Both the position numbers and the translations under genes were made by a program. From assembly GCA_947179485.1 (NCBI GenBank), contig OX359249.1, forward strand, positions 9,486,001 through 9,550,000: a DNA stretch of 64,000 nucleotides. The letters are read 5' to 3'. Below, one piece after another: positions 12,345 through 38,200 of the stretch; position 1 is the stretch's first letter, and the number at the start of each line of letters is the position of its first letter. This DNA comes from Allacma fusca. Lineage: Eukaryota > Arthropoda > Collembola > Symphypleona > Sminthuridae. Under the pieces are notes generated by a model that searched no databases, was not told the origin of the DNA, and saw only the letters and a program-made list of their open reading frames with translations.

Positions 12345-12918
12345 TGTTACGTAATTGGTATTACTCGGGTATTGATGTTATGCGGGTAATACTAATGTAG
12401 CCTAGGTTCGGGTGTTCCATCCCCTGAATTCCTGGAATCCGATGTTGTTGGAAACGCATGAATAAATGGAACTATTGATTCTGTTGTGTAGATTCGTTTA
12501 TAATTAATTGGGCCAATTTATTGTTCCTAGAACTGATACAATTTACACTGAACAATTAACATTTAACACAAAATAGAATTTGAAGTCTGAATCTCTTCTT
12601 CCTGAAATCTCCCGATTTCATGTCGCCCCGCTTGCTACCTGTGGAGATCCATCCCGGAGGGAATGGACTCTAGGTGCGGCTCCTCTTGATGTTGCTTGCT
12701 TGAAGTCGAGATTAGAACTTGTACTTAATCTACGTGTCTTAATCTAAATCTAATCTTATCCTATTCTTAGTTTATTGTTTATTAAATAATCTAAATCATT
12801 TCCTTATAATTATGTTATGTCAGCGTTTGGCATCACGTAGCCTCTGCTTACGACCTTCCAAACTATTTGCTGACTTAGATTATGCTTATTCTACTCTATT
12901 TATAATATATCCGTAACA
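12345..12918 (-). repeat. 3' LTR of the giant element
   Basis: 574 bp with TGTTAC/GTAACA terminal inverted repeats. It matches 40630-41203 base for base on my reading. On the sense (minus) strand it contains two AATAAA signals close together (12783-12778 and 12776-12771) that could direct polyadenylation. A TATAAATAG motif lies only some 14 nt inside the sense-strand 5' edge. Confidence 0.95.
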
Positions 12919-17048: not shown

Positions 17049-20000
17049 TTAATCGTCTTCCTCGGACGGCCCTCTGAGGGTGCCTGTCTCCTCCTCTCCT
17101 TCCGATAGTGTTCGGAATGATATGACTGCGAATCTATTCTCGGATAAAATCTCCGGGTCCCATCTTGCCCGTTCCGATCTTTCCCATAATTGATCCATTA
17201 ACCTTCTGTGCTCCACAGGGTTTGTTATGGAAAGATAGCTGGTTCTTTGTTGTGTTACTGGGTCTCTCCTGAGTTCTTCCTGAATAAAATCATGTCCAAG
17301 GTCTCGAAAAACTATTTCGATTCCTGTTCGACCTCTGAGGGTTCGTATGAGATTTATTATATCGGGTTCATCTGGTCTTCCATCAATGACAACTGATCGC
17401 CATTGGGGTGTTTGGAATCGATCTATAGCGCTTGGTACCATATGTATTGGTGTTATTCCTGGTCGTCTTTCATTTCTTGGCGATAATTGATATGGTTTGT
17501 AACTTGGTCCGTCTCCACGGTTGCTAATTTGCTCCCGCATCCTGTGAAAATGTTCTCTTTGCCAGATTCGTATCGTGACAAGTTCGTTTAGGTCTCTGAA
17601 AGAACCTGTCCTCCGGGGTTGTCTTAGGGTGGCTACTCCTCCTTTTAGTTTTCTAGCGTATAGGGTAGTTGGCTTTTGGCCTTCCCCTGCTAGTTTCATT
17701 GCGAATATCCAGTCTTCCCATTGTCCTAGTTCTTCTTCTATGTCGTCTATTGGATTGGGTTGACTTCTGCCGCTTTGGTTCATCGCTCCAAATTGTCGCC
17801 ACTCCTGAATTGCCTCGTCCTGATGATAAAGAGTTATGAGCCTTTCGGTCATACTCGCAAATTCTTGAAAACTTAGCATGTGTATTGGTATACTTGCTAG
17901 TTGTTGTAAAGCTTTCTCTCCACGTCCGGTGATGGCGTCTCCTCTCAGTAGGAAACTATTTATCCATATTTCTTGCTCTCGCCAGGTTGGCTGAGTTCCT
18001 ATGTCGAACCACATCTGAGTAATTAATCTGCGTAGCTCTGTTCCTGTTAGCCCTTGCATTACTCCTTGATGTTCCCGACATGTTAGGTATGTTGGTACTT
18101 GGTGATTGTCAATACCTCTTTGACCATTGAACAGTGTTGTCCAAAGTCTCGGTATCATTTCCCCTGGTGAGATGTTCATGTCTCCTGCCATCGTTTCCAG
18201 ACGGGTGTTTTCCATTGGTACGTTTCTTCGACTTTGCCCGTATAGGATGAGCAGGTCTCGCTCCCTTGGGTCTAGTCTGCGATAATCTGTGGGATGGTCC
18301 ATTGCATCATACAGCAATGCCCTTCTTTCCCGGATTAATTCTCCGTGATTGTTGTAGTCTATTCCTGCCTGGTGTTCGGCGTATTCTATATTTGATTCGT
18401 GAGCATCTGTTCTAGGTTCGCTTAAAGTGCTAAGCGCCCTTCGTAACTGCTCGAGTCGTAGTTGAGGTGGTTGGGTGGGTTGTTGGTGGATGTCAAGTCT
18501 CTCGATAAATGTCTCCCTGTACATTCTGTTGAGCCATCTCACTAGATTTTGCTCTGGACTGTTGGTTGACCGGTGTGAGATATTATATGTTGGAAATCTC
18601 TCTGGGTCGATGGTAGATTTCTGGTAACAATGAGGACACATGGTGGATCTTTCCCTGGTGTCCATGTTGTTGCTGAAGTAGTTCGTTCTCCTGGAGTACT
18701 GCGCTTCTGTCTGGCTGTGGCGTTCATCTCCGGATATATCTTCCATCACTTGGTCCGGGAATCTTGGCGGTGGTGAGTGGTCCAATGGGTCATTGGCCCT
18801 TTCCACCATCTTTTTCACTTGAAGTCGTACCGGATCCAGTTGGCTGTATAACTGTGTCTTGTTTGGGTTGGTAAAGATGACTATTTCCGCATCCTCATCT
18901 TCCCAACTTGGTGCTACCATCCATCCACGGACTCCTATATAAAATGATACGTGAGCTAAATCAACGAATCTTACATCAGGTGAGTCTGGTTGTGCTAGTG
19001 GGTCTTCCGGTGCTGGAGCTGGTGGGTTTTCCTGGCGTTCTTCCTTGAACTCCACCTTTCGTTGTCGTTGTCTAGCTCGTCTGGACTTCAGTTTGTCTTC
19101 AATGGGTGGTATAGGTTGTCCCGTTTTCGTGGATGGTCCGGGTGACGGTGACCTTGATCCTCGTCTGTCCCTTGTATCGTTAAATATTACAGTCCTAATG
19201 GGTGAGTATACTCTAACCCTGGGTCGTTCACTTTCTGGCTCTGGACCTCGTCGTCGTCCTCTATACTGGAATGTACAGTTTGGGGCGTTGTCTCTTCCAT
19301 ACAACCTGTCCAACTCGGGTCTACTCCTTCGGATGTATTGTACCGGAATGTCCTTTTGTCTTTGCCAAGCTTCATGTGCTGCTAACTTGGTCTTTGGTCG
19401 TACGGGTGGCTTATGGCCATGTTTGAGTGGGCAGTATTCGCATCTGGTCTGCACCCACTTACTGTCTGTCTCATTATCTGACGAACTATCTACCTGATGT
19501 TCCAATGGTGGCTTTTCTTCGTCGTCTAAGACTTCTTCCTTGATTACGTTCAATGATGTTCCGGCTCCTTCTTCTTGAGCTTCCATAGCTTGTTCCGTTG
19601 GCACAGCCGGTTCCTCTTCTGAGGCCAAAACCGGTCCTTCTGCTCCCTCTGTCCTTCGTGGGTGGCTTCTTCCGGGGTCGTTCTTCCGTATTGGATCCTG
19701 GTTCCCTCCGAAGTCCATTCCGACGGACGTGCCAATATAGATTACCATTCTGAGGGTAAATCGTACAAGCTGTTGAATAATCCCTGTAGGTCTTCCTGAC
19801 GATGAGTGAGCCTCCTCTTCCTCGATTCGTGCCAGCATAAGCTGTAGCTGTTGTTTTAAGAATTGTTTGCTATAACTGACGGGTGACCATGCGTTGGTCG
19901 GTCCTACGAATGCATCTCGCCTCTGTCGTTCTCTGGCTGCTCGTTCCGACGTTCGCTGGAAGAGTGGGTGGGTTTGTGAGACGTTGGCGTGTGCCTTTGT

Positions 20001-23000
20001 CTCCCATCCCTTAAGTTCTTCTGCTTCGAGATGGTCAACTCCGTTGTATATATGTGGTATGAGCAAAACTATCGTCCAGTTTGCTTCTGTGATTGTTGTT
20101 GCTAGTGCGAAGTGTACAACTTCACCTATTGCAATTTCCTCGGTGGGGTGAACATAGTCTTCCCCTTTTGTTATACTGTGAGGGTTGTTTTGGATCTGGC
20201 GTTGTAGATCATTTATCTGGTCTTTTGCCAAGATACTTCGCCTGGTACGTGTACGTGTGTTCTTAAGTCCCAAAATTTTGATGATTTTGCTGATGAATGT
20301 TCCGTACTGTAATTCGTACTCCTTCCAAATTTCGTATTCGGTATGTAGGGGTAACGGGATTGTCTTTGTGATTAAGTCCATTGCGACTGACTGTAAAGTT
20401 CTTGTTGTAAGGTGGTAACCGTCACGTATTGCTTGTGACATTAACCAAATGGCTTGCGGCAATTTCCGTTGGTCTCGAATTTTCTGTCTTCGTTCCTCTT
20501 CCTCCGAGGTGGGTTCAGGAGCATGTCGTCGCTCTCTCCCGTTTTCGGATTCTTCCGTGTCCACTTCTTTGCCTAAAGCTTGGTTCCATGCTTTGGCTAC
20601 AGAAGTTTCGTTGAGGTAATGAGCATTCCTTTGGATATCATCTGGCAATGCTATTAGGTTTGGTGAACTTTCCGTTGCTGCTGGACTTTCTTTGAGAAAA
20701 TCTTCAAGCTCCTTTTCCTCACTGGCATTGACGGGCATTATCATCCAGATGGGTCGTTGGTCTGGTAGTTGGGACTCAATGAGTACCCAGTCCTGTGGTA
20801 TTTTAACTGTTTTGAGTGGTTTATTCCATCTCCTGACTGCGTCTAGGATTGAGCTGGTATAGACTCCTACTATGACCATTCCCGTGGTACACATGCCTAC
20901 GGCTCCTGCTACTCCTCGTATTACTCCGTTCTGCCAGAGTCGGTGCGCTGTGGCTGAGCCGAAACCTTGGTACCGTACGGCTGAATTTCCGACCGGTGGG
21001 CATTCCCGTTGGCCGTAAGGGTCATAGTGTCCGATTTCCTCTGAGTCTTCCTTATTTTCAAAGTCTAGGCTGACATGGTCAAAGCCTCTTGGACTGGTTA
21101 GATTCTCGGTTTCCAATCGGGTCCACCACTGGTAATGTGATGCCCGGGTTGTTGGATATGGTCCATAGTGTCCCGTCAATTCCTTTCTCAAGTTGGGTTG
21201 TCCTATAGCAGATGTAATTAAACCGAACATTAATAAAAATGATAACCAACTGTTACCGAGGTAAGGTATGGGTCCTCCTCGTCTTCCTCCTCCTCCACGT
21301 CTCATTTCCGGCGTGTGAGGTGGCGTTTGAATTGATGAGGTTGACTGTCTTGGTTCCTCGTCGTCACTGAGGATGACGGTTCCGTCCTGGGGTGAATTGG
21401 CAAAATCAGCCAATGAAAGCTGGTGGTGATTAACAATTTCCGTTGTATCTGAAGTTATTGATGATTCTCGATCTTTGGGTCTTCTTTTTGCTCTGATCAC
21501 CTCAAAATCCTCTGAGCTACTGCTCTGGTCGTTGTGTTGTTCGGCTATAGATAGCTCGGATGTTGCAACTTCGACGTTTTGTGCTGGTGAGGGTGGCGTT
21601 TCCGTTGCCATTCCTGTTGGGCTTGCAGTTTCTGGACCATTTCGTTTTTCCTGAGCGAGCAAACGCTCTAGCTCTCCGGATGTAGCTGTTGACGTTGGAA
21701 TGTTCGTTGGTTCAAAATGTGCTGGAGGTAATTCTCTGGTTTGAAGGTCTATTTTTGATTCAGCACATACCAAGTGAAAGTCGTTATCATTTCTCCACTT
21801 TATCCATTCCTGGCGGTGGCGTGCTAATTCTTTCATTAATTCTTCCTTTTGCTTTTTCGCACTGTCTGCATTGACGTTTTGTCTGGCAAGGTTGCGGATG
21901 ATTTCCCCGAGATCTTTAATTCGGTTTACCATCTCCTCGTGCTTCCCTGCTTTCCTGGAGTCCTCTCCGATCTTTAGGATGTTTGACTGCCATTTCGCCG
22001 GTGGTTGGGTTGGTGCTGTGCTCTGTCCGAATAGCTCTAAGATGGTCATCTGAGCCTCTTTCTTGACCTTCTTCTCCTTCTTCGCACGTTTCTTTGCATG
22101 ATGTTCACATTCCTGTTGTACCACTGGTCCACTGTCGGTTGCAATTACTTGTCGTACCTTCTTACATCCTTTCCTACTACAGGTTTGGATGGGTACTGTC
22201 TCTTCCTCTTCTGAGTCTGAAGAGGATTCATTGGCGGTATCTCTGTCCGCTGTTGTGGCTATTTCCGTGGCTGTTTCTTCGCTCCATCGTATTACTGCTA
22301 CTGGTGGTGGAGTCACTACAGGTACTTCCACGGGTCTCTCTCTTTGAGCGATGCAAACTGCACGCTGTGGTTTAGGTGGTTCACTACTGACCGGTATTGT
22401 TGGCGGTGGCATCTTTGTGACCGCTGTGTAGCTTAAAGCTGGAGCTGCTATGGGTGCCGTCAGTATTGACTCCCTCTCCACTCGGTCTTTATAATCTTTC
22501 GCTGCTGGTGATAAAAATGGTGAAGGTGGTGGGGTTGACTCTCTCCTGCTCCTTGACCGCGCTGGACTATCATAGCGGCTCCTTGACCTGTCGTCTTCCC
22601 GTCGCTTCTTCCTCTCCGATGACGACTCTGTCTCCCGCTTCCTGGTCCTGCTGTCCTTAGAGCTGTGTCTTTCCCTCGAACTTTCTCTTGAGCTTCTATG
22701 ATGCCTGCTCGAACTTTCTCCAGTAGTGATGGCCCGCCCGCGGCCTCTCCCGGCTGGTACCATGTGCGCCGAGTAGGCTGCGAATCTCGGAGGTTCCCTT
22801 CGTCGGTCCTCCAAGTTCCCTCGTCTCAGATCGGGTCCATAGTTATCATCAATACGTCTACTGATTCTATGGGCTACGTCCTCGACCTGTTCTTCATGTT
22901 GCGGTAACCATTCACTGATTTCGGGGATGTTGACCCGGGTAACTCCACAAATAGGGTCGGCTCCCATCACTTTCCGAGATGAGCTTCGACTTGTCTTGCC

Positions 23001-23618
23001 TCGTTCGTACTGAAGGCTTGGAGTAAATGCCCAGGGGTCATGTTCATAATCTCCCCTTGGATTCTTTTGTCCGGGCACATCCTTTTCTTGCCTGTAATTT
23101 TGGACTAGCCATGGATCATCTGGCTGTCTGTTACGTGTTCTACAGATAGGAATCTGTCGTCGTATGGGAGTGGGATTAAATTCTTGCCCTTTAAAAAGGT
23201 AAACAAGATCATCTGGCGCTCGCTCGCCTTTGTCTACTTCCACCTGCTGCTCCGGAAAATTTATTGACCCGCAAAAGTGCGGTTCTCGTCGTAATATGCG
23301 GTAATCTAATGTTAACTCTCTAGGTTTCCTGAGAGCTCCGATTAGTACTGAATGGGTTACGATTTCTCGTCCATCTCGTCCTTGGATGATAATTCTGTGG
23401 GGTAACTTCCCGTCTACTCGGAGAACAACTTCCAGTCGTCCCGTATCTGAGTTTGGTAAGATTTTTGCTTGTGGTATTTCCACTTCAGTTTGACTCACGT
23501 ATTGGGTCCAGTAACGTGGTCGATCGTCGTCGTCCCTGTCGACGGCGGGTAGGGCGTCTTGGCGTGGAGTCTCGTTGGTTCGAGACCCGGATGCACGTGA
23601 CCCTCTGTTCTCTGACAT
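17049..23618 (-). CDS. ORF3: 2189-aa protein of the giant element, membrane-spanning middle
   Basis: Unrecognised as a whole. Residues 1-140 look globular. About 300-370 is an Arg/Ser-rich tract like an RS domain. About 477-510 holds C-x4-C...C-x2-H spacing and basic runs, followed by a coiled coil near 545-605. A hydrophobic segment at about 785-803 (WLSFLLMFGLITSAIG) starts a region with five N-x-S/T sequons (NLT, NAS, NET, NWT, NVS), basic cleavage-like sites near 1027 (RERR), 1123 (RTRR) and 1228 (RERQRR), a second hydrophobic helix near 897-930 and a weaker one near 1280-1295. This middle part resembles a processed glycoprotein. The last 890 residues are non-membrane, with two CxxC pairs and a helical W/F-rich region near 1900-2010 that loosely recalls a capsid. 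The ATG follows a splice-acceptor-like TTCAACCAG. It sits where env would lie, but env homology is not shown. Confidence 0.75.
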   Translation of the reverse strand: MSENRGSRASGSRTNETPRQDALPAVDRDDDDRPRYWTQYVSQTEVEIPQAKILPNSDTGRLEVVLRVDGKLPHRIIIQGRDGREIVTHSVLIGALRKPRELTLDYRILRREPHFCGSINFPEQQVEVDKGERAPDDLVYLFKGQEFNPTPIRRQIPICRTRNRQPDDPWLVQNYRQEKDVPGQKNPRGDYEHDPWAFTPSLQYERGKTSRSSSRKVMGADPICGVTRVNIPEISEWLPQHEEQVEDVAHRISRRIDDNYGPDLRRGNLEDRRREPPRFAAYSAHMVPAGRGRGRAITTGESSSRHHRSSRESSRERHSSKDSRTRKRETESSSERKKRREDDRSRSRYDSPARSRSRRESTPPPSPFLSPAAKDYKDRVERESILTAPIAAPALSYTAVTKMPPPTIPVSSEPPKPQRAVCIAQRERPVEVPVVTPPPVAVIRWSEETATEIATTADRDTANESSSDSEEEETVPIQTCSRKGCKKVRQVIATDSGPVVQQECEHHAKKRAKKEKKVKKEAQMTILELFGQSTAPTQPPAKWQSNILKIGEDSRKAGKHEEMVNRIKDLGEIIRNLARQNVNADSAKKQKEELMKELARHRQEWIKWRNDNDFHLVCAESKIDLQTRELPPAHFEPTNIPTSTATSGELERLLAQEKRNGPETASPTGMATETPPSPAQNVEVATSELSIAEQHNDQSSSSEDFEVIRAKRRPKDRESSITSDTTEIVNHHQLSLADFANSPQDGTVILSDDEEPRQSTSSIQTPPHTPEMRRGGGGRRGGPIPYLGNSWLSFLLMFGLITSAIGQPNLRKELTGHYGPYPTTRASHYQWWTRLETENLTSPRGFDHVSLDFENKEDSEEIGHYDPYGQRECPPVGNSAVRYQGFGSATAHRLWQNGVIRGVAGAVGMCTTGMVIVGVYTSSILDAVRRWNKPLKTVKIPQDWVLIESQLPDQRPIWMIMPVNASEEKELEDFLKESPAATESSPNLIALPDDIQRNAHYLNETSVAKAWNQALGKEVDTEESENGRERRHAPEPTSEEEERRQKIRDQRKLPQAIWLMSQAIRDGYHLTTRTLQSVAMDLITKTIPLPLHTEYEIWKEYELQYGTFISKIIKILGLKNTRTRTRRSILAKDQINDLQRQIQNNPHSITKGEDYVHPTEEIAIGEVVHFALATTITEANWTIVLLIPHIYNGVDHLEAEELKGWETKAHANVSQTHPLFQRTSERAARERQRRDAFVGPTNAWSPVSYSKQFLKQQLQLMLARIEEEEAHSSSGRPTGIIQQLVRFTLRMVIYIGTSVGMDFGGNQDPIRKNDPGRSHPRRTEGAEGPVLASEEEPAVPTEQAMEAQEEGAGTSLNVIKEEVLDDEEKPPLEHQVDSSSDNETDSKWVQTRCEYCPLKHGHKPPVRPKTKLAAHEAWQRQKDIPVQYIRRSRPELDRLYGRDNAPNCTFQYRGRRRGPEPESERPRVRVYSPIRTVIFNDTRDRRGSRSPSPGPSTKTGQPIPPIEDKLKSRRARQRQRKVEFKEERQENPPAPAPEDPLAQPDSPDVRFVDLAHVSFYIGVRGWMVAPSWEDEDAEIVIFTNPNKTQLYSQLDPVRLQVKKMVERANDPLDHSPPPRFPDQVMEDISGDERHSQTEAQYSRRTNYFSNNMDTRERSTMCPHCYQKSTIDPERFPTYNISHRSTNSPEQNLVRWLNRMYRETFIERLDIHQQPTQPPQLRLEQLRRALSTLSEPRTDAHESNIEYAEHQAGIDYNNHGELIRERRALLYDAMDHPTDYRRLDPRERDLLILYGQSRRNVPMENTRLETMAGDMNISPGEMIPRLWTTLFNGQRGIDNHQVPTYLTCREHQGVMQGLTGTELRRLITQMWFDIGTQPTWREQEIWINSFLLRGDAITGRGEKALQQLASIPIHMLSFQEFASMTERLITLYHQDEAIQEWRQFGAMNQSGRSQPNPIDDIEEELGQWEDWIFAMKLAGEGQKPTTLYARKLKGGVATLRQPRRTGSFRDLNELVTIRIWQREHFHRMREQISNRGDGPSYKPYQLSPRNERRPGITPIHMVPSAIDRFQTPQWRSVVIDGRPDEPDIINLIRTLRGRTGIEIVFRDLGHDFIQEELRRDPVTQQRTSYLSITNPVEHRRLMDQLWERSERARWDPEILSENRFAVISFRTLSEGEEETGTLRGPSEEDD

Positions 23619-23811
23619 CTGGTTGAAGATAAAATACTTTGCAGTAATCTGATTTAATGATTGTGTACGTACCTACGTATCGGATTCTCCTTTGACCTTG
23701 TCGTATGAGGTAACTAATGAGATTTATACGGTCTCCAATCTTGAGATCAACCTTGCTTTGACCAAAACTAACACAGTTTGGTATTGTTGTTAAGTATCTG
23801 GTGGTGTTCAT
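23485..23811 (-). CDS. 108-aa ORF coupled by ATGA to the last coiled-coil ORF
   Basis: The ATG overlaps the TGA of the preceding small ORF as ATGA (23811-23808) and lies six nt after the pol TGA, in the pol frame. Residues about 18-62 (KVDLKIGDRINL...VGTYTIIKSDYCKVFYLQ) have the pattern of a small beta-barrel such as the C-terminal integrase or SH3-like modules; this is a loose visual resemblance. The last third is Arg-rich (RRPTRRRQGRRR) and overlaps the first 134 nt of ORF3 in another frame. Expression could be by termination-reinitiation or by readthrough of the pol stop. Function unknown. Confidence 0.5.
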   Translation of the reverse strand: MNTTRYLTTIPNCVSFGQSKVDLKIGDRINLISYLIRQGQRRIRYVGTYTIIKSDYCKVFYLQPDVREQRVTCIRVSNQRDSTPRRPTRRRQGRRRSTTLLDPIRESN

Positions 23812-24071
23812 TCGTTTTCAGACTGATCCAAATCTTCTCGTCCTTTTTCGGGTACGAGTTGGGTATCGTCTACTTTCTCCGATTTCTTCAGCGCTTCCTT
23901 CCTGAGGTGTTTCCCCTGCTTCTTTAACTCCCGAATTTCCTCCTGAACTTGTTGAAGTTCCTGTTGGATTTGTACTCGTCGGGTTCTGAGGGTCGCTGAA
24001 TGTCTCTCGGTGCTCTGACGTATTTGTTCTAATTCTCTCAGGCCTTCTGGGACTGTCTTTCGTGATGACAT
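23808..24071 (-). CDS. Nested coiled-coil ORF 5 (87 aa), +1 frame in pol tail
   Basis: True ATG start. The sequence is a charged amphipathic helix with hydrophobic residues in heptad-like spacing (LRELEQIRQ, VQIQQELQQVQEEIRELKK), then an acidic tail. It is in the same frame as the other four nested ORFs and ends in TGA overlapping the ATG of the 108-aa ORF. The pol frame over the same bases is low-complexity, so the coiled coil may be the constrained product. Expression is inferred only from the pattern. Confidence 0.5.
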   Translation of the reverse strand: MSSRKTVPEGLRELEQIRQSTERHSATLRTRRVQIQQELQQVQEEIRELKKQGKHLRKEALKKSEKVDDTQLVPEKGREDLDQSENE

Positions 24072-27000
24072 CCAATGACCTGTCCTCTTCTGTAGAAAAT
24101 TCTACAGGTATGTTAATGACTTCTGTATGAGTATCTACAGAGTCTTGTCCGTTTTCGTCTGTTAGCACTTCTTGGAACTCTTCGTCCTCTTCTGTAGAAT
24201 TTTCTACAAGGACTTTTCGTTCCTTGGGTTGGTTGAATTGTTGGCTAACCTGTTGGCTGCTCGTATCTGATTTTTCAGAATATTCTTGGCTCTCTCGGTT
24301 TGTTCTATTTCTTTCTCCACTCGTGCTATTGCCTCTCTGATCCGACTGCCTTGCGCTTGTAGGCTTTGCAGTGTCTGTCTCTGAGCTTCGCTGGGTGGGC
24401 TTGGTGTTGAGTTCCACAAAGGGGGGCTCTTCCAAGGCCTTTTGCTCATCTGAGTGAAGCAATTGGGTTGAAATATCCGCCGCTATTGAGGGCCAAGGCA
24501 CCTCAACTCGTGAAGTCGCTTCTGAAGGTCCTTGATTTCCTGTTTCAATTTGTCCAGGTCTCCCTCTCTCTGTCGTAGGCGGTTGATTAGTTCTCGGTTC
24601 TGATCCCGAATTGTAAGAATTTGTCTCTCTACACTCACTGCTGTCGTCCACATCAAATTCTGTTGGACTTATCCCTGAACTACTTAATTCTTTAAGTGTT
24701 TTAAAGTCACTTTCGTCAATAAGTGGTTGAGTTTCTTCCTCACCTTCGGATGTTACACCTGAGCTATTTTCAGCTGGTTTATTAAATCCGAAATATCTTC
24801 TTTGGCTTTCTGTGTTTCCTGGAGGGTTGCTTTGTGGTCTCCCTCGAGTTGTTTCAATTTGCTCAGTATTTCCTGTTGTTCCGAAATCTGATGTAAAATT
24901 CTTTGTTTGAGACGAATTTCGTTCTCCTTTGCCTTGATTAATTGGGCTTGTAATCCCTGGATGATTAGGATTAATTCTCTCTTTGTGTGTGTCATCAGTT
25001 ACTCTGGTTGAACCTCGTCTTGTGATTTCTCCACTTGTGGGCAGAAACTTGACGTTTGAGGTTTTGTCTCCTGAATTAGCGGTTCTAAGTCTGCGATTCT
25101 CTGTTTGATGTACTCTTCCTGAGCTGCGTACTTCCAAATTTTTATTTGGACTAAATTCCTCTGTTGTTTCAATCCCCTTATCTCGTCCCTGATTTCTTCT
25201 AGGGTGTTCATTTACTTTCGAGCGAGTGAAATATGGGTAATTTTTATCTTTTCTTCCCTGAATATTATCCTTGTGTTGATGTGGTCCCTGGTTTGGTTTC
25301 CCTCCTTCACTTGGGGTGATTTGAGAGTGTGAGTAATTTTTGTCACAAAATTCTCCTCTCTGTTGTACTGGCTGAGCTTGGTCACTTGAACTGTCTGAGT
25401 AATTTTCGGATGAAAATTCTCTAGTTATTTCTTCAGTTTGAGCAGGTTGAACTTTAAAAGTCACCTTCTTGCTCGTAGTTGAACTGTTATCTGAAGTGGT
25501 CGAACTCTTAAGAATTGACCGTGGCTGACTCACTATAACTTTTCCACACTTGTTCCAATTTCGTTTTGTTACCAATTCCACTATATCGGAATCTAAGTCG
25601 TAACTATACTCGTCCTCAATGTGTTCTCGCTGCAGGCACTTCTTAAGCCTTTCCACATGGACTTTCTGTCTCTTTTTAGAATTCCTAAGGTCTTGAATGA
25701 TATAATTGTCTTTGGCTAAAACTTCTATGACTACAAAGGGTCCTTTGTAAGGGTGAAGAAAGCGTTCGCTCTTTCCAACTATCCTGGTCGGTGTAAAGAC
25801 TCGCACTGTGTCTCCGATGTTGAATTTAACGAACCTTCTTTTCCTATCATACCAATCCTTACTGTAGTCCTGACGTTCCCTTATCTTAGCAATAGCTTTT
25901 TCTATTCTAGTAGTGGCTTCCTCAGCACTCATAAAATTAGTGTCGACGCTGCTTAAACACAGTTGTAAGTTAAAATCATATATGGGTTGTCGCCTAAACA
26001 TCATAAAATAAGGAGTTTCTTTGGTCACGTCATGGTGACTGCAATTGTAAGCATTTATTAGAAACGGTAAACAACTGCACCATAATGCTTGCTCTTTTTG
26101 AGTATAATGACTCAGCATAGTGCTTATAGTCTGGACCATTCTTTCTATTTGTCCAACACTATTATGTCTTAGTGCTGTAGATGTAGAATGGTTCATGCCT
26201 AATCTGCGAAGTAATGCTTGAGTGATTTCCGCTCTGAATTCGGATCCTCCGTCACTCAGCAAGTTTTTAAACAGTCCGTATTTTAAAACTACTTTGTGAA
26301 GCAAAAACTCTGCTATCCTGTCAGCAGTTTTATCTGGAATTGCTTCTGCGATCACGAACTTTGAAACATAATCCTGTGCGATTATAATGTACTTATTCCC
26401 TTTTATACTAATTTGCATGGGTCCAATGAGATCAATACATAGTGCATCTCCTACATTTTCTATCCTGATTGGATGAAGCAATCCTGCTGGCTTCATTCTC
26501 ATGGATTTGGCTGCTTGGCAACTTTCACATGACATGACATATTTTGCTACTGAGACGTTCATTTTTCTCCAAAAATAATTTTTGTTGAGTCTATGAAGAG
26601 TTTTCTGGAATCCTAAATGTCCTCCGCATAGGATCCCATCATGAGCTTTTGATAGTAGAAAATTTCTAAGTACTCGGGGTACGTATAACTTACGTCCATC
26701 TTTATGTACTATAGTAAGAATCCCTTCTTCATCAATTTCATATCGGCTATACTTTTCTTTGTCCTTCCAATTTAACGTATGCCGCATCTTTATTTTGTCC
26801 ATGATGAATAAACAATCTGGATCGTCCCTTTGCATCTCCTGCATGTTATGTTCCTTTAACATAGTAACTTGCTCTTCATCTTCAAGTATCCTACACACAG
26901 GCTTGTGTGTGGAAAAAATATCTTTGCTCCCTTCGCACCCCTGTAGTGCGTGAGCTCCTGGAACAAATTTTATTGCTCTATTTAATGACATGTCCTCAGT

Positions 27001-30000
27001 TTTCTGAGCGTCTTTATTCCTTTGGTCTTCATCCTGTGAAAGACATAGTGAATGTGACGTCTTTTTACTTGTCACAACACCCTGCCCTTTCAGAGGTTGA
27101 ATCTTCCATGATCTTCCATCGGTGAATTTAATTTCACCTTCCCGGATATTTTTCCTCAGCTCTTCTACTGTGGTCGCCAGTAGAGAGTAATTATTTTTAT
27201 TAACTGGATTCTCTGTGGATATGTACGTATGCGACGGCGGAGGGTTTTTGTTTTCCTCCGACTCGCATGCTGCAGATCTTCGTTGGATATTTTTCATCCA
27301 TTCATCCACATCTTTGGAAATCTTCATCGCCTTGATCCGCTGTAGGGTATCAAGATCCGGATTGTTAGCATATCCTGGACTTTCTGCATCAGGAACTTGA
27401 TCAATCCTCCTGGCAGATTGTGCAGTGTATGTCTTCAATTGCGAAATAACTTCCTGTTTGAGCTTCCATTCGTCACCTTTTGCTGGCGTTGGATTCCTCC
27501 AAATTTCTTCAAATGCAAACCATTTCTCCTCATCTGTGGGATCGTGTCCGGATGGAATGTGATTTTCCACACTGAACTTTTCCTGTCTCAGTGTCGGTCG
27601 GTCGCATTCCTTTTGGACGTTCCTATCTTCATCCGTGAGTACCAATTTCTTGGCCTCTGTAGGATTGGCGGGATGGGTGGGCGGGTTAGTTGAGGACTTC
27701 TCTTGTGTAGTCTCAGCTGCCTGGCTCACCAGATCCGCTGTTTCCTGATTCTTCAATGTTTGATCATGGACTTCCGTATCGGAGTCTACAATTATGGCTG
27801 GTGGTAGATGTACAGCTTTAGTTTCAGCCTCACCTGCCCCATCCATTGTTGTGAATTCCATTGTACTTCGTGTCATCTGCCCTTGGGATTTTGGTGAATC
27901 AATGTCAACCTTCCCGTTGGCTGGACTTTGTGACGTTATTGCTGCCGTTGACTTTGGGGTAGGAGACCAATCCGTCCCCATTCCAATGTCAATGTTAGTA
28001 TTTCTGTCAAAATCTTCATTCTCATCTTGAACTCCATCCGGTGATAAAAATTCCTTCATGTCTAGTTCATTTATTGTAGCATTGTGAAGCTCTATTTCCT
28101 GTATTAATTTGAGATTTTTCTCGTAGATATACTCATTGGTATATTTCCAGGTGTTTTCATCCTCTTGTGGATCATCCTCCCGAAATTTGTGTATTGTAAT
28201 GATGTCATCTACGGATAATTTCCATTCTTTGAGCGCTGAGTAGCTGTGTGTAACTTCATTAACACGGCTCTTTACGCTCATTGTATGGTTTTCCCAATCC
28301 GTTTCCTCCAAATTCGGTTGAGGTGCTAAAATTTCCACTTGTGATTTGACTCTACGCCTGGGTTGACCTTTCAATCTTCCTGACCATGGATTTTGTCGCT
28401 GTGGGATTATGGCTTCCTCTTCATCTGAGGATTGACTTTCGTCATCCGTCCAATATTTTCCCTTATAGCTTTCCCTGGTCGTAAGGCTGGCTGCACACGC
28501 TGGTGGTGGCATCATTATGTTCCCCTGAGGGATTTGTTTTTGTTCTTCCAAAGCGATTTTGTGCTCTTTGACCGGATCTGGGTCAAATTCGATCACTCGG
28601 TCCTCTGTATCTTCCAAATCTTCCTTTGTATAGGGTAGTGGAGCTCTGGATAGAAAATCTGCATCCAAGTGTAAAGCTCCTTTCTTGTATGTAACTTGAA
28701 AGTCAAATTCCTGTAGTTTATTTACAAACTTACTTATCCGGTGGTTTGGATCTTTTTGTAATCGTAGGTAGCATAACGCTAAATGATCTGATCTGATTAA
28801 AAATTTTCTCAAATAAAGATACTGTCTGAATTTGCGAACTGCATATACGACTGCTGCTAGTTCTAATTCTGTGACTGAATAATTCTTTTCTGACTGAATT
28901 AGTGTCCTTGAAGCATAAGCTATTGGATGTTCTCCTCCATCATCTTGAAGTATACAGCATCCTAGTCCTGAGATTGATGCATCTGTATGTAGTATGCAAT
29001 CCAACTCTGGATTGAAATGAGCTAGGACTGGCTGTGTCATTAACTTGGTTTTGAGAATGTTGAAGGCAATTGTTGCATCTGCACTCCATTGGAAGCATCT
29101 TATGCGTTTTTGTCCCTCAGACTTCCCTTTGCTTCCAATCCATGATTGAGAGATGGGACTAGCAATTTTTGCGAAGTCCTTGATGTATTTCCTATAGAAA
29201 CTGCATATTCCGAAAAATCTTCTTGCTTCTGTTTCGGATTTTGGTACTGGCACATGTCTAATAGCGTCCACCTTTGCAGGATCTGGACTGGTGCCTTCCC
29301 TGGATACTTTGAATCCTAAAACAATTACTTCAAAATATCCGAATTTGCATTTCTTTGGCTTGAACTTAAAGTTCTTGTTGCTGGCTCTTAACATCAATTC
29401 TTCGAGAGATGCTAATTTGTCCAAAAGATGAATTCCATAAGAGATTACATCATCTAAATATACCATGGCTCCCCTAAATTTGAGTGAGCCCAGCATTTGA
29501 TCTGCTGCTCGCTGAAAAGCTGACGGTGCAATCTTGACTCCCATAGGTAGTCGTTTGAATGCATATAATCCATCCTGTGTGATGAAAGAGGTTATGACTT
29601 GGTCATCCTCATGTATTAATAATTGAAAGAAGCCTGACTCCATGTCAAGAGTGTCGAAAATTGCAGATTTTCCAAATTGCATAAGTATGTCATCTATTCT
29701 TGCTAAAGGGTAAACTTGATCTGTGATGGTTTTGTTTAACGCTCGATAATCCACAACTGATCTAAATGTTCCGTCTTTCTTCTTGATAAGAAATAGTGGA
29801 CTGCTGTAAGGTCCGTTCACTTCCTTAATGATGTCTGCATCTAACATCTTTTGTACTTCCTCACGTACTTTTTGTCGCTCCATAGGTGAGCAAGGGAAAG
29901 GTTTTGCCTGAACGGGTGGATTATTTCCCGTATGGATCCGAATGGGATCAATCCACGCTGGTTCTTTCAAATCTCCCTTGTTAAATGCGAAACATTCTGG

Positions 30001-30933
30001 ATATCTTGTCAACAATGCTCGGTACTTAGCTCTTCCTTCTTCATCGAGCTCTTCATTGACGTCGAAACAATCGAGCTGTTCTTGTGTGAGCCTTTTATGA
30101 GCATCACGTAATTGATTGCGTTTAATTTTGATGAGGTCAAAATTTTCTTCAGCATGACCTATAGCTGTACGTCCATACATTGTTTGTGGGCATGGAGCTG
30201 GATTAAATACATATGCGAAAGGTTCTTCGTTTGGTACTACACCTGCGGCTACTAAAAGTCGCTTGCTGGTGTAAAGCTTTTCTGATGGTTGCAAATAAAA
30301 ATCCTTTTTGATACGTTTTGGAATTTGTATGGGCACTTTCATGTGTCCATAGGCTGGTATTGTGACTGCTTTTCGAGTCCTGCACATCATGTTCTTCGGT
30401 CCTTTGACTTCATGAAATGAAAATATTGACCTGACAAATTCTATGTCGGCCTTCTTCTCTCCGACGTAGAGATGAGTGTCCCTAGTCATTGGAACTGTTT
30501 GAAATCGGTCACTCCGTATTTCATTATTCTTGTAATCCAACGTTATTCCGTAGCGTGATAAAAGATCTTCACCTATAATCATTCGTGGCTCTAGTGTTTC
30601 CATCACTAGACCTTTGAACAGAAGTTTTTCACCTTCAATCATCATTGTGAATTTGGCGAGACAAATTGGTTTTACCAATTCTGCATTAGCTACTGCTACT
30701 CGCAGAGCGCTTGGAACTTCCTTTATTTCCGCACATCTGGGTACTAAGTTTCTTTGGATACAGGATCTTGTTGCTCCTGAATCTAGTAAAGCTGGTATCA
30801 TCATACTGCATATTTGTACTTGTAAAGTGGACTTGTTGCCGTTTGATAAACGACATGGGTTGAGATCAATAATTTCTAATTCTTCGTCGTCTTTTGACTG
30901 ACTTTCTACTCTAGTTGCTATAATTGCATTCAT
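23818..30933 (-). CDS. pol: Pol polyprotein (PR-RT-RNase H-IN) with long insert and tail
   Basis: 2371 aa, made either from its own ATG or as a -1 frameshift fusion with Gag. Aspartic protease: LLDSGATRS at 49-57. RT: DTLDMESGFFQL near 427-438 and YLDD at 492-495. RNase H: LHTDAS with D651, TELELAAV near 688-695, RSDHLA with D716, HLDADFLSR near 755-763. Then a low-complexity acidic spacer, about 770-1425, where related Pol proteins have almost none. Integrase: the HHCC zinc finger from about 1430, catalytic D1501, D1561 and E1597 (DD35E spacing), and a GPF module near 1728. From about 1760 the protein continues for about 600 residues rich in S, T, N, E, Q and R. That tail overlaps five small ORFs in the +1 frame. 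All catalytic motifs look intact, so the enzyme set is probably active. It copies the RNA genome and integrates the cDNA. Confidence 0.95.
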   Translation of the reverse strand: MNAIIATRVESQSKDDEELEIIDLNPCRLSNGNKSTLQVQICSMMIPALLDSGATRSCIQRNLVPRCAEIKEVPSALRVAVANAELVKPICLAKFTMMIEGEKLLFKGLVMETLEPRMIIGEDLLSRYGITLDYKNNEIRSDRFQTVPMTRDTHLYVGEKKADIEFVRSIFSFHEVKGPKNMMCRTRKAVTIPAYGHMKVPIQIPKRIKKDFYLQPSEKLYTSKRLLVAAGVVPNEEPFAYVFNPAPCPQTMYGRTAIGHAEENFDLIKIKRNQLRDAHKRLTQEQLDCFDVNEELDEEGRAKYRALLTRYPECFAFNKGDLKEPAWIDPIRIHTGNNPPVQAKPFPCSPMERQKVREEVQKMLDADIIKEVNGPYSSPLFLIKKKDGTFRSVVDYRALNKTITDQVYPLARIDDILMQFGKSAIFDTLDMESGFFQLLIHEDDQVITSFITQDGLYAFKRLPMGVKIAPSAFQRAADQMLGSLKFRGAMVYLDDVISYGIHLLDKLASLEELMLRASNKNFKFKPKKCKFGYFEVIVLGFKVSREGTSPDPAKVDAIRHVPVPKSETEARRFFGICSFYRKYIKDFAKIASPISQSWIGSKGKSEGQKRIRCFQWSADATIAFNILKTKLMTQPVLAHFNPELDCILHTDASISGLGCCILQDDGGEHPIAYASRTLIQSEKNYSVTELELAAVVYAVRKFRQYLYLRKFLIRSDHLALCYLRLQKDPNHRISKFVNKLQEFDFQVTYKKGALHLDADFLSRAPLPYTKEDLEDTEDRVIEFDPDPVKEHKIALEEQKQIPQGNIMMPPPACAASLTTRESYKGKYWTDDESQSSDEEEAIIPQRQNPWSGRLKGQPRRRVKSQVEILAPQPNLEETDWENHTMSVKSRVNEVTHSYSALKEWKLSVDDIITIHKFREDDPQEDENTWKYTNEYIYEKNLKLIQEIELHNATINELDMKEFLSPDGVQDENEDFDRNTNIDIGMGTDWSPTPKSTAAITSQSPANGKVDIDSPKSQGQMTRSTMEFTTMDGAGEAETKAVHLPPAIIVDSDTEVHDQTLKNQETADLVSQAAETTQEKSSTNPPTHPANPTEAKKLVLTDEDRNVQKECDRPTLRQEKFSVENHIPSGHDPTDEEKWFAFEEIWRNPTPAKGDEWKLKQEVISQLKTYTAQSARRIDQVPDAESPGYANNPDLDTLQRIKAMKISKDVDEWMKNIQRRSAACESEENKNPPPSHTYISTENPVNKNNYSLLATTVEELRKNIREGEIKFTDGRSWKIQPLKGQGVVTSKKTSHSLCLSQDEDQRNKDAQKTEDMSLNRAIKFVPGAHALQGCEGSKDIFSTHKPVCRILEDEEQVTMLKEHNMQEMQRDDPDCLFIMDKIKMRHTLNWKDKEKYSRYEIDEEGILTIVHKDGRKLYVPRVLRNFLLSKAHDGILCGGHLGFQKTLHRLNKNYFWRKMNVSVAKYVMSCESCQAAKSMRMKPAGLLHPIRIENVGDALCIDLIGPMQISIKGNKYIIIAQDYVSKFVIAEAIPDKTADRIAEFLLHKVVLKYGLFKNLLSDGGSEFRAEITQALLRRLGMNHSTSTALRHNSVGQIERMVQTISTMLSHYTQKEQALWCSCLPFLINAYNCSHHDVTKETPYFMMFRRQPIYDFNLQLCLSSVDTNFMSAEEATTRIEKAIAKIRERQDYSKDWYDRKRRFVKFNIGDTVRVFTPTRIVGKSERFLHPYKGPFVVIEVLAKDNYIIQDLRNSKKRQKVHVERLKKCLQREHIEDEYSYDLDSDIVELVTKRNWNKCGKVIVSQPRSILKSSTTSDNSSTTSKKVTFKVQPAQTEEITREFSSENYSDSSSDQAQPVQQRGEFCDKNYSHSQITPSEGGKPNQGPHQHKDNIQGRKDKNYPYFTRSKVNEHPRRNQGRDKGIETTEEFSPNKNLEVRSSGRVHQTENRRLRTANSGDKTSNVKFLPTSGEITRRGSTRVTDDTHKERINPNHPGITSPINQGKGERNSSQTKNFTSDFGTTGNTEQIETTRGRPQSNPPGNTESQRRYFGFNKPAENSSGVTSEGEEETQPLIDESDFKTLKELSSSGISPTEFDVDDSSECRETNSYNSGSEPRTNQPPTTERGRPGQIETGNQGPSEATSRVEVPWPSIAADISTQLLHSDEQKALEEPPFVELNTKPTQRSSETDTAKPTSARQSDQRGNSTSGERNRTNRESQEYSEKSDTSSQQVSQQFNQPKERKVLVENSTEEDEEFQEVLTDENGQDSVDTHTEVINIPVEFSTEEDRSLDVITKDSPRRPERIRTNTSEHRETFSDPQNPTSTNPTGTSTSSGGNSGVKEAGETPQEGSAEEIGESRRYPTRTRKRTRRFGSV
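24204..24449 (-). CDS. Nested coiled-coil ORF 4 (81 aa), +1 frame in pol tail
   Basis: True ATG start, 33 nt after the stop of nested ORF 3 in the same frame. Residues about 20-70 (LQSLQAQGSRIREAIARVEK..., AKNILKNQIRAANRL) form a coiled-coil-like helix. The first 20 residues are Pro/Ser-rich. Function unknown; expression not shown. Confidence 0.45.
   Translation of the reverse strand: MSKRPWKSPPLWNSTPSPPSEAQRQTLQSLQAQGSRIREAIARVEKEIEQTERAKNILKNQIRAANRLANNSTNPRNEKSL
24483..24653 (-). CDS. Nested coiled-coil ORF 3 (56 aa), +1 frame in pol tail
   Basis: Found by translating the +1 frame directly between the neighbouring small ORFs. ATG at 24653, TAG at 24485-24483. Residues 8-50 have regular hydrophobic spacing (QILTIRDQNRELINRLRQ, LDKLKQEIKDLQKRLHEL), a clear coiled coil. 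It is shorter than its neighbours but of the same type and in the same frame. Confidence 0.45.
   Translation of the reverse strand: MWTTAVSVERQILTIRDQNRELINRLRQREGDLDKLKQEIKDLQKRLHELRCLGPQ
24753..24995 (-). CDS. Nested coiled-coil ORF 2 (80 aa), +1 frame in pol tail
   Basis: ATG start just after the previous ORF's stop: the sense strand reads TAA CTG ATG in one frame. Almost the whole length is an amphipathic helix (LILIIQGLQAQLIKAKENEI, ILHQISEQQEILSKLKQLEG, ISDLINQLKI). This is the strongest coiled coil of the set. Either reinitiation or leaky termination could link it to ORF 1. Confidence 0.5.
   Translation of the reverse strand: MTHTKRELILIIQGLQAQLIKAKENEIRLKQRILHQISEQQEILSKLKQLEGDHKATLQETQKAKEDISDLINQLKIAQV
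24999..25211 (-). CDS. Nested coiled-coil ORF 1 (70 aa), +1 frame in pol tail
   Basis: True ATG start (sense context GTAAATGAAC). Residues 3-50 are helical with hydrophobic heptad spacing (LEEIRDEIRGLKQQRNLVQI, YIKQRIADLEPLI); a P/S/Q tail follows. It is the first of five small ORFs lying in the +1 frame relative to pol over a 1.4-kb stretch. Function unknown. Confidence 0.5.
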   Translation of the reverse strand: MNTLEEIRDEIRGLKQQRNLVQIKIWKYAAQEEYIKQRIADLEPLIQETKPQTSSFCPQVEKSQDEVQPE

Positions 30934-30953: not shown

Positions 30954-33900
30954 TTACTGGGGGTGCGTCCCCCTCTGTGAGTTTCCCGACGGATATGGGC
31001 TAGATTGTCTTTTGTGTGGGCAATTTCTCCTCAGATGGCCCATCTCTCCACATCCGAAACATTTTAGGTCGGTTTGAGTGGATTCTAGCGCCAATTGTCC
31101 CGGTATCGGTTGTGACTGCTCCTGGCGGTCTGGTTGATTTCTCCAAGAGTTGTTTCTGTCGGTGCTTTGGCTGTTCCGGTCCCTGGAGTTAGTTCTACTC
31201 CTGTTGTTATTGTTATTGTACTGTTGGGGTCGCTGACCTCCTGGGTTATTGTTTGGCTGGTAACCCTGGTTCTGGTAACCTTGTGGGTTGGCCTGAATTT
31301 GTTGCATGCCAGGGTTGGCGTACCCTGCATTTTGCCCTTGACCGTATCCTTGTTGAGGTACGTATCCTTGAGATGGTCCATACCCTTGGGTAGGTGCATA
31401 ACCTTGGAATGGTGCATAACCTTGTTGTGGTGGGTATCCTTGATTCGGATTAAACCCTTGGGGTGGCATAAAGCCTTGAGTTTGATTAAATCCTTGGCTG
31501 TTATAGCCGTTGTAGGACTGATTGTATCCTTGGTTCATCTGCTGGTCATTCCACTGACGATTTCCCTGGTTGTTAGGGTTGTTGTTGTAGTATTGTCGGT
31601 TCGGACTTTGTCTAGATCCGAAGTTTTGGTTCCGCTGCGGGTAACCTTGGTTGTTGGAGCTGTTGCCATCATTTCTGTACTGAGGCCTACTCCTGTCTTG
31701 ATTATTGTAGAATCTCTCAGGTGTTGGAGATCTACCTCGGTTCCCATAATTTCTTCGGTCATCGTACCCTTGGTTGTTACGTCCCCTGTCCGGGTAGTTG
31801 TTATTGTTACTGTAACCTGGGCTGGAACTCCGTGAGTTGTTGAAGTTTCCCTGACCTGGACTTCGTCCCCGTTGGTCATTGGGTCTATTCTCAGGTCTCC
31901 GATAGTCCTGTTGTTCTCTCACTGCAGCTATTTTCACTACAGTTGTTTCCGCTGGAACGGGTTTCATTCCGGAGGTTAATTTCTCCAACATTTCTTGGAC
32001 TTTGGCAAATCTTGTCTCAATAGATTCCGCGCCGTCCGTCTTTCGGTCTTCATCATACTGCTTGATTCCCTCTATGAAATCTGCTACAGTCCCTGCTGTC
32101 CATCCTCGGCAGAAAACTATGTATTCGGATGTTAACCCTGCGCGTAAGAGTCTGATTTTCTCCAGTTCGGGCATAAATCTGTCGACTCTGTTGATTAGTG
32201 CTAATTTCGCATCTATGTATGCGCATGGATCTTCATCCGTATTCATCTTTCGCTTTTCCATTAGTGTACGTATCATTTGGTCGGTGATACTGTACCTTAT
32301 TAAAAATTCCTCCCTGAATTCGTCCCAGTTAATGGTGTCGTAGGGTAGTTCCTCATGTAATCTTCGTTCGGCAATCCAATTTCTGATCCAATCCCTGACG
32401 GGTGGGTCAAAGATGATCTGTACGTATTGCATCCTGGTTATGATGGTATCTCCTCCGAACCTGTTGGTCTGAAGTTCGGCTGTTGCGAAAGCTGTCTCTG
32501 GGTCATCTACACCCGGTTTGAATTCTACTTTGGGAAACATGAGGGCGGTCATGTCGTCGTCCAGATGTCTCCTTGGAATTATTCGTACTTGTTCTTGGTC
32601 TGCAACTTCCTCAATACGTATTCCCTGATTGCGATTGAGTGGTACGTATGGGTTGATGATGTTAACGTTGACCTGGTTAAAGAAATTATTTCTGTTCACA
32701 ATCTGTCTATTCCTCCAGTTGTCGAAGGCCTCAAAGTCGTGAGGGTTACTTGAGTTGCTACTGCTGGAGCTGGATGATGAGCTACTTCCTCCGGAACTTC
32801 CGGGGTCACTCCTTGCTCTCTGTCTGCCTCCGATGTGTCTACCTCCTCTTGAGCCTCCTCGACCTGGATTTGACCGTGATTGTGATGGTCGCTGGTTGTG
32901 GGAGTTGTTGTTATTAGCTCCTCTCGGCTGGTTTCCTCTCCCTGATCCACTTGGTCCTGGGCCTGGTGGTCTGGGCTGGTTATTTCCAATTTGACGGCGT
33001 GCTCGTAAGGGTTTACGTCTCTTTCTGACTTGAGTGAGTACAACTTGAGTTTCCGGACTAAGGTCTCGGAGTCGGATTCTTGGGAAGAAGTGGGTTTCTC
33101 CGGTATTATCCACAAATCGGACTTCCTCTTGTATCTCTTCGTCTCTTTCGATTGCTCTGAACGCTGCGTCGTAGGCGTCGTCTATAGAGATTCTTATGGT
33201 AAATTGACCTGGTACTTCTGGAATAATGAAGTCTTCTTCGTCAACTCCAATAAAAATGTGGTCTGTCTCTTCACTAGACTGTGTACTGTTATGCTGACCA
33301 CTCTCACGTCTTGGAGTGTCTCTCTGTACTACCTGCTCTTCTTCTTCCTCGCTGGACGTGTCACTCAAGATTTCTACGTTAGGGTCGTGAATTAATCTAT
33401 TCAATGCCTCTTGGTGGTCGTGTTCGTTCTCAATTTCTTCCAAGAAGCCTGGTGGTACCCTTTGTCTGCGAACGCCGTTCGGTAGACTGATGTGTCGATG
33501 GTAAAGTCTGAAATTGGGTGCGATGTAGCTGGAGATCTGTCCTGGATCTAGCGATCTTCGGGTAATTATATTCCAGAAGGTAAATATCGGGTGTTCACTC
33601 AGAACAATTTCTTCGTGTTCAGCTCTTGTGGCTGCAAACGCTTCAAAATTTGAATCTCTAGCTGGTCTAAACCTTCGTTGTATGATTCCGTCCCTTCTGT
33701 TATAGTAGATCAGGCGTCTCACTTGACCTGTCCAAGTTGCTTCGTTCTCTACCCCCTGGTTTCTGAATCTGTCTTGTTGTCTCGCGATCTTAGAGTATTG
33801 TCTTACTGTTACTCTGCTTGGTACTAGCTCGTCTTCGGTTGCTTCGTTCTCGCTGGTGTATACTCTGCCACTTGGTCCTGTCCAAATGTTAACTCCGTAT

Positions 33901-38150: not shown

Positions 38151-38200
38151 GCTAGTTGCGTCTAACTCCGTAAACTATCAGTCTTATTGTCAATCAACAC

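Follow-up and report, generated by a model that had tools for sequence, protein, structure and literature searches.

Overprinting, env-adjacent accessory genes, and leaky scanning are each already known, and vif overlaps pol in complex retroviruses. In Rice tungro bacilliform virus (RTBV) and badnaviruses, as described in the part of PMC5902531 drawn on here, leaky scanning proceeds over 900 nt through ORFs that lack internal AUGs and have suboptimal starts, and start contexts without both favorable bases form the weak class. On the rev-env dicistronic mRNA of SIV, ribosomes get to env beyond a small ORF through leaky scanning or reinitiation (PMC5902531, same part). A novel accessory protein of an LTR retrotransposon, CERV of Cer1 in Caenorhabditis elegans, is one multidomain protein from a spliced mRNA, unlike the array reported here, and the words overlap and leaky are absent from the main text of that paper (PMC10309623). 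LTR elements of bdelloid rotifers carry extra ORFs after pol, some with a coiled coil; unlike the present array, these are described as ORF3s, and the word overlap is absent from the main text (PMC5408684). Overprinting in viruses places a new gene in another frame of a pre-existing one, and unlike the cases in the part of the review consulted (PMC8227390), a whole array occupies the apparently loose tail of one gene here. Overlapping genes have mostly been described singly; the present case is an array of similar type in one frame of another gene's tail. No report of an array of this kind in an LTR element was found in the titles and abstract openings of the open-licence papers searched.

The window analyzed is a 64,000-nt stretch of the genome of Allacma fusca (GCA_947179485.1, OX359249.1, positions 9,486,001 to 9,550,000), within which all coordinates are counted, and most likely belongs to the X1 chromosome. 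Among VPS28 sequences that bear an organism name, the nearest was that of another springtail, Orchesella dallaii (80%). The window contains an LTR retroelement of 28,859 bp, which occupies positions 41203 to 12345 of the minus strand (Table 1). The characteristics of Ty3/gypsy elements (Metaviridae) were all observed, namely, LTRs with TGTTACG...CGTAACA ends and a short target duplication, Pfam matches of pol in the order protease, reverse transcriptase (RT), RNase H, and integrase, and a gag with a zinc knuckle (zf-CCHC, 8e-5). The zinc-binding and C-terminal integrase matches exceeded the Pfam cut-offs, the integrase core match (32.2 bits) was slightly below its cut-off of 32.6, and the Retrotrans_gag match to the gag-type part of ORF A (E value of 0.024) was below the cut-off. 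The integrase part of pol, the part used as the query, matched 11 proteins of the protein database with identities of 24% to 29%, none of them a close relative. A PHROGs search gave one weak match, to an entry of unknown function, and a scan of viral_contigs with part of the RT gave five pattern matches, none of which was confirmed. ORF C showed no homology with known env or fusion proteins, the mark of errantivirus-like elements that bear an env; the whole ORF had no Pfam match at 0.01 and no PDB match at 0.1 in a sequence search, and two pieces of it had only sub-cut-off Pfam matches with unrelated names (E values of 0.07 to 0.1). A PDB sequence search with ORF108 led nowhere, and its AlphaFold2 model was uninformative (mean pLDDT of 44). 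The 243-amino-acid (aa) ORF had no Pfam match above the cut-off and, judged by eye, may encode a membrane protein.

Table 1. Features of the A. fusca LTR retroelement, with positions in the window
Feature	Positions	Strand	Evidence or remark
5' LTR, 574 bp	40630..41203	-	exact repeat of 12345-12918; ATAT directly outside
ORF A, 2188 aa: gag-type part beginning at ATG 32552 and bearing a CCHC knuckle, preceded by a long N-terminal extension	30954..37520	-	
ATG-free stretch within ORF A, ends at in-frame ATG 32552	32553..36556	-	0 ATG versus 29 expected
pol, 2371 aa: protease, RT, RNase H, integrase, long S/T/N/E/R-rich tail, basic C-terminus	23818..30933	-	Pfam
CC1, 70 aa, +1 frame of pol	24999..25211	-	intact in copies; helix model
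CC2, 80-aa coiled coil, begins 3 nt past CC1 stop	24753..24995	-	intact in copies; relative in L064
CC3, 56-aa coiled coil	24483..24653	-	intact in copies; match in L062
CC4, 81-aa coiled coil	24204..24449	-	intact in copies; match in L064
CC5, 87-aa coiled coil; stop overlaps following ATG (ATGA)	23808..24071	-	intact in copies; match in L064
ORF108, 108 aa, pol frame	23485..23811	-	constrained down to about ORF C start (sliding constraint)
CC1 start to ORF C start: only seven ATGs, all ORF starts, pyrimidine at -3	23616..25211	-	
ORF C, 2189 aa, in env position; no family or structure match	17049..23618	-	
243-aa ORF with a hydrophobic N-terminus and another hydrophobic stretch inside	15750..16481	-	
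3' LTR, 574 bp	12345..12918	-	exact repeat of 40630-41203; ATAT directly outside

Five ORFs of 56 to 87 aa, CC1 to CC5, lie on the minus strand in a single frame, +1 to pol, exactly where an earlier sequence-only reading of this DNA had placed them. Its description of all five as coiled coils holds for four (P of 0.97 to 1.0), with CC1 reaching only 0.49 in COILS-type scoring. CC1, the one ORF of the five modeled by AlphaFold2, was predicted from its single sequence as one helix over residues 4 to 47, with block means of 95 to 99 over residues 1 to 40. Over the same bases the pol frame is of low complexity, as had been proposed (S, T, N, E, and R account for 53% of residues), and contains no coil, with 0 residues at P > 0.5. 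The same reading had held that five ORFs of one type were hard to explain by chance, and shuffled controls agree with it. A coil ORF was counted as an ATG-started ORF of at least 50 aa with at least 28 coil residues, and the controls comprised 1,500 codon-permuted and 1,500 synonymously shuffled sequences, the latter keeping the pol protein. The real array has five ATG ORFs of at least 50 aa, four of which count as coil ORFs; five ORFs of this length occurred in a fraction of 0.0007 of the codon-permuted and in none of the synonymously shuffled controls, at least one coil ORF occurred in 12% and 18% of them, respectively, and none of the 3,000 reached three.

The suggestion that the five ORFs are diverged copies of one unit found no support in the 10 pairwise protein alignments. 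The highest z scores were 5.0 (CC2-CC3) and 3.4 (CC3-CC5), those of the other eight pairs were 0.7 to 2.5, a reversed partner scored equally high or higher in 5 of the 10 pairs, and DNA alignments gave z scores of at most 2.2. Descent of CC1 to CC5 from one ancestral unit was rejected on these alignments; to judge from sequence, the five proteins have their type in common and not their ancestry. In Pfam, the CC proteins had only sub-cut-off matches, mostly to coiled-coil models, and matched no known accessory protein; no sequence relation to the accessory proteins of complex retroviruses was found there. The array resembles those accessory genes in consisting of small genes at the pol-env junction and differs from them in that a single frame encodes five to six coiled-coil proteins, all of the same type.

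A DNA search of the 392.7-Mb genome gave 148 candidate places, the best 40 of which were compared. Since these were the best scored, they are the closest copies; they include the window and are all full length and 96% to 100% identical. One copy (L011) aligns poorly upstream of about 26780 and was kept in the counts. All possible base changes were sorted by whether they are silent in each of the two frames, and a change was scored as seen if present in any copy relative to the window; the counts are of distinct site changes, not independent lineages. All five CC ORFs are intact from ATG to stop in 40 of these best 40 of 148 copies, and the pattern named beforehand as contrary evidence, +1 stops with an intact pol frame, occurs in none of them. 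Within the CC ORFs of the best 40, changes silent in the +1 frame and altering pol were seen at 118 of 691 opportunities (transitions, 95/388; transversions, 23/303), versus 38 of 748 for changes silent in pol and altering the +1 frame (transitions, 31/374; transversions, 7/374; P = 1.5e-13). The integrase region of the same 40 copies shows the reverse, with 5 of 576 pol-altering, +1-silent changes (transitions, 4/320; transversions, 1/256) versus 73 of 582 pol-silent, +1-altering changes (transitions, 63/299; transversions, 10/283). In the gaps between the ORFs, pol is the more constrained frame in the best 40 (pol-silent transitions, 24/81, versus +1-silent transitions, 13/88; Fisher P = 0.016). 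A sliding window over these copies showed that constraint passes from the pol to the +1 frame at CC1, that in the gaps the +1 constraint weakens or pol constraint returns, and that from ORF108 onward constraint remains in the pol frame as far as the ORF C start. CC5 is the least constrained of the five (16 of 87 pol-silent transitions seen in the best 40), and ORF108 is intact in 39 of the 40.

Stop-making changes in the +1 frame of the CC ORFs were seen at 0 of 208 possible sites in the best 40 of 148 copies, and those in the pol frame at 3 of 186, each at a single site, although none of the copies carries a pol stop in that region. The amino acid changes observed in the CC ORFs of these copies had a mean coil score change of +0.41 (n = 88), compared with -0.89 for all possible changes, and none of 5,000 resamples was as high as the observed value. 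In the best 40, the array combines a conserved start-to-stop frame with purifying selection in the +1 frame, two properties of overprinted genes. The proposal that the small proteins are the selected products is supported by the both-frame counts, the intact copies, and the diverged families described below.

The companion proposal, that the pol tail is the overprinted frame, stands insofar as pol residues over the CC ORFs are nearly free, but the frame is not an unused one. It stays open in 40 of the best 40 of 148 copies and leads to a basic C-terminus with a YPTR motif, which is also present in other families, with pol closing in RYPTR or KYPTR in families B, C, and E too. In the best 40 copies, the last 19 pol residues occur in four forms, each one residue off the commonest. 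Between the integrase and the C-terminus, the tail seems to act as a loose linker with little dependence on residue identity, and such a linker would be permissive for new genes.

A degenerate RT-motif pattern matched 153 places, with several codon variants among the 100 matches listed, and seven loci were read (L060, L061, L062, L063, L064, L065, and L066). L064 (family B) contains six coiled-coil ORFs in the +1 frame of pol (66, 83, 100, 59, 80, and 89 aa; all with P of 0.95 to 1.0), its pol tail is open to the basic end, and relatives of ORF108 (96 aa, 50% identity) and ORF C (60%) follow the array. Five of these ORFs pair with CC1 to CC5 by order. In tblastn searches of L064, CC2 (46%, E = 7e-20), CC4 (35%, E = 1e-14), and CC5 (31%, E = 2e-14) were matched, and CC1 and CC3 had no match at an E value of 0.5, pairing by position and global alignment only (30% and 34%). 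Between the window (family A) and L064, where the DNA is about 50% identical, the CC frame shares 130 of 369 residues (35%) and the pol frame 82 of 369, and CC-silent, pol-altering changes number 171 per 466.7 weighted opportunities versus 96 per 475.7 for the reverse class. In comparison with L062 (family D), the identities are 152 of 194 and 130 of 194, and the changes number 39 per 243.2 and 17 per 249.8; both sets of identities, A-B and A-D, rest on alignments built from the CC proteins, which favors the CC frame. L062 matches CC1 (74%), CC2 (76%), and CC3 (91% over 47 aa), with a coil score of 0.11 for its CC1; no match to CC4 or CC5 was found in it and later ORF C sequence follows, so that this copy looks internally deleted. 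L060, a sister of L064, was excluded from the A-B count because its pol tail is frameshifted and its CC5 is broken, and L063 (family F) was excluded for an internal deletion in the array region. No array was found in L061 and L066 (family C) or in L065 (family E), which were left outside the A-B and A-D counts; these loci have a short pol tail, a small ORF of 82 to 91 aa, and then ORF C. In L061 and L065 the pol identity is about 41%; in the L066 stretch pol was not aligned. Among the loci sampled, the array was therefore found in families A, B, and D, and its gain in these three would be the simpler reading, although families C and E may instead have lost it.

The 1,596 nt that begin with the CC1 start codon and extend to that of ORF C contain only seven ATGs in all frames together, compared with 15.9 expected (standard deviation, 3.9), and these seven are the starts of CC1 to CC5, ORF108, and ORF C. 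Upstream of CC1, no ATG occurs for 447 nt. Exactly seven ATGs are present in 39 of the best 40 of 148 copies and eight in the other, and in these copies 280 of 280 starts have a pyrimidine at -3 and 0 of 280 have a G at +4. Two hallmarks of RTBV-type leaky scanning, suboptimal contexts and no intervening AUG, ORF bodies included, are found here. ATG-making changes in the CC region were seen at 5 of 249 opportunities versus 323 of 4,515 for other changes in the best 40; among nonsilent transitions there, ATG-making changes showed no deficit (4/43 versus 89/1,001). L064 has nine ATGs versus 22.2 expected, eight of them ORF starts and one an in-frame Met; its ORF108 and ORF C starts have a purine at -3, so that in this copy uniform weakness is confined to the six CC starts. 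In L061, L065, and L066, the small ORF starts with T at -3, and ORF C begins 235 to 241 nt beyond this start in L061 and L065; three further ATGs lie nearby in L065 (757, 804, and 827), and in L066 the ATG matching the ORF C start runs into a stop. These loci may represent an abbreviated version of the leaky arrangement in families C and E.

Selection at the protein level, the order of the ORFs, their intact starts and stops, the scarcity of ATGs, and the weak contexts are all shown by the sequences, and with good probability they reflect real small genes between pol and ORF C that would be expressed by leaky scanning of one mRNA and may function as assembly adaptors. We infer a subgenomic mRNA, spliced or separately started, whose 5' end would fall in the ATG-free 447 nt before CC1. 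Scanning ribosomes would then encounter only weak start codons, at each of which some would initiate and others would scan on, which would yield CC1 to CC5, ORF108, and ORF C from the same mRNA. Some reinitiation may assist at CC1/CC2 and CC5/ORF108, junctions at which a stop overlaps the following start or lies within a few nucleotides of it. Pol would be read from another RNA, and its frame would only need to stay open to the conserved basic C-terminus. The small accessory proteins would act through coiled-coil pairing; the fact that different coiled coils are kept side by side suggests that they pair with each other, Gag, ORF108, or ORF C. A role as adaptors of particle or RNA-protein assembly is the most likely function, proposed less firmly than the rest, and nuclear RNA export, by analogy with CERV (PMC10309623), would be a fair alternative.

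Real ORFs could also owe their translation to coupled termination-reinitiation or to several spliced mRNAs, each beginning upstream of its own ORF. The stop-start contacts at CC1/CC2 (TAACTGATG) and CC5/ORF108 (ATGA), the shortness of the CC ORFs, and the spliced mRNA reported for CERV (PMC10309623) all favor such translation, but reinitiation needs no ATG-free bodies and separate mRNAs need no weak contexts, and both features were found. Leaky scanning, unlike reinitiation alone, requires that the ORF bodies lack ATGs in every frame; they do, and ribosomes accordingly seem to pass through them by scanning without translating. Moreover, ORF C starts inside ORF108, so that on a shared mRNA it would be reached past the ORF108 ATG. 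In the region scanned before CC1, no strong or convincing splice acceptor was found, the best sites lying at about the 95th percentile of the background. Translation by these routes in place of leaky scanning is accordingly rated unlikely.

Two further explanations deny that the five ORFs are separate genes or genes at all. That they are exons of one longer spliced +1-frame protein would agree with their single frame, order, and protein type, but every CC ATG and stop is kept in 40 of the best 40 of 148 copies, several +1 stops lie between the ORFs, and the +1 frame is not the constrained one there; one spliced protein was rejected on the inter-ORF constraint and the kept start and stop codons and is very improbable. 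An artefact, in which a biased, A-rich, low-complexity pol tail gives helix-like charged +1 peptides by chance, draws on an A content of 39% of the strand, which would favor K, E, Q, and R in any frame, and on the minority of controls that contain a coil ORF. However, none of the controls has three or more, selection acts on the +1 frame, and L064 keeps the peptides at about 50% DNA identity; the both-frame counts and shuffled controls led to the rejection of a chance origin, the probability of which is close to nil, barring a nucleotide-level cause of the constraint that tracks +1 codon positions.

Leaky scanning through the array resembles that of RTBV in that a reverse-transcribing element has consecutive AUG-free ORFs, suboptimal starts, and a long scan (900 nt in RTBV and 1,596 nt here). 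Unlike the array, ORFs I and II of RTBV precede the polyprotein ORF on the pregenomic RNA, and in the arthropod element six small ORFs, five of them inside the pol frame, lead to ORF C. Seven to eight serial starts on one mRNA, as proposed here, exceed the cases in the part of PMC5902531 consulted; if true, the leaky-scanning operon would be longer than any of those, and the CC proteins would form a new class of accessory factors in retroelements. Confirmation of the seven-start chain would set a new benchmark for the distance over which eukaryotic ribosomes scan and leak, and would give arthropod LTR elements a set of accessory genes like that of retroviruses, which routine annotation overlooks. 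Because the genome contains dozens of copies as well as diverged families, the birth of genes by overprinting can be traced here with true replicates.

A second region poor in ATGs lies in ORF A, where 4,004 nt contain none in any frame and ATG is the sole trinucleotide absent. Each of 2,000 synonymous shuffles of this desert had at least 7 ATGs (mean, 16.7). Among 13 sequences compared (the window and 12 copies), eight have no ATG in it, four have one, and one has two; nonsilent ATG-making changes were seen at 0 of 547 opportunities versus 254 of 8,645 for others, and silent ones at 5 of 49 versus 473 of 2,756. The ORF A protein frame is constrained across 37520 to 32330 in the copy comparison. 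Hidden genes in the desert were rejected since neither of the other two frames is constrained alongside that of ORF A, so that no such gene explains the missing ATGs. The desert terminates just before the gag-type part, and scanning to the gag start is its likely reason. The wider proposal, a cassette of five to six interacting overprinted coiled-coil proteins with a two-desert translation system of 7 to 8 leaky starts and a 4-kb scan to Gag, has about an even chance of being correct. The ORF A ATG itself is in a strong context, with G at -3 and +4, and is preceded by 47 ATGs from the 5' LTR onward, LTR counted, so that some RNA processing must come first.

In the 28,859-bp Ty3/gypsy-type retroelement, the coiled-coil ORFs in the +1 frame of the pol tail (CC1 to CC5) are followed by ORF108, a conserved ORF of 108 aa; the beginning of ORF C, the ORF in the position of env, overprints the later portion of ORF108. 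An early stop in ORF108 was found in 1 of the 40 copies (the window copy and 39 others), namely, L013. An in-frame stretch of 75 nt immediately 5' of CC1, present in all 39 other copies, is missing from the window copy; 2 of those 39 lack 21 nt near this site.

Features of the window and of two diverged loci (L064 and L060 in their own coordinates)
Feature	Locus	Coordinates	Strand
ORF108	Window	23485-23811	-
Missing 75 nt	Window	about 25250	-
ATG-free stretch of ORF A	Window	32553-36556	-
5' LTR to ORF A start	Window	37521-41203	-
BCAS3-like gene	Window	46976-48889	+
BCAS3-like gene	Window	58011-59594	+
ORF with repeated peptide	Window	11010-11351	-
Sixth coiled-coil ORF	L064	1099-1401	
Shifting pol-tail frame	L060	655-2758	

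Among the diverged family B loci, L064 has one coiled-coil ORF more, the sixth, which is 100 aa long, lies between the positions of CC2 and CC3 and has no counterpart in the window family. In its sister L060, the frame of the pol tail shifts from 1 to 0 and back to 1, and the coiled-coil ORFs, CC5 excepted, are open despite this shift.

ORF A contains an ATG-free stretch of approximately 4 kb, preserved in copies, which ends at an in-frame gag-type ATG. Upstream, 47 ATGs, counted from the 5' LTR, precede ORF A, so that the unspliced genomic RNA would hardly be scannable.

Elsewhere in the window, two tandem BCAS3-like genes share a 121-aa alternative ORF in their later parts, with 1 difference. 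The near identity of this ORF, in contrast to 76% identity over an earlier 300-nt stretch, possibly reflects recent conversion. The ORF in which the peptide GFSNSLTFLWQ is repeated is probably a short tandem repeat.
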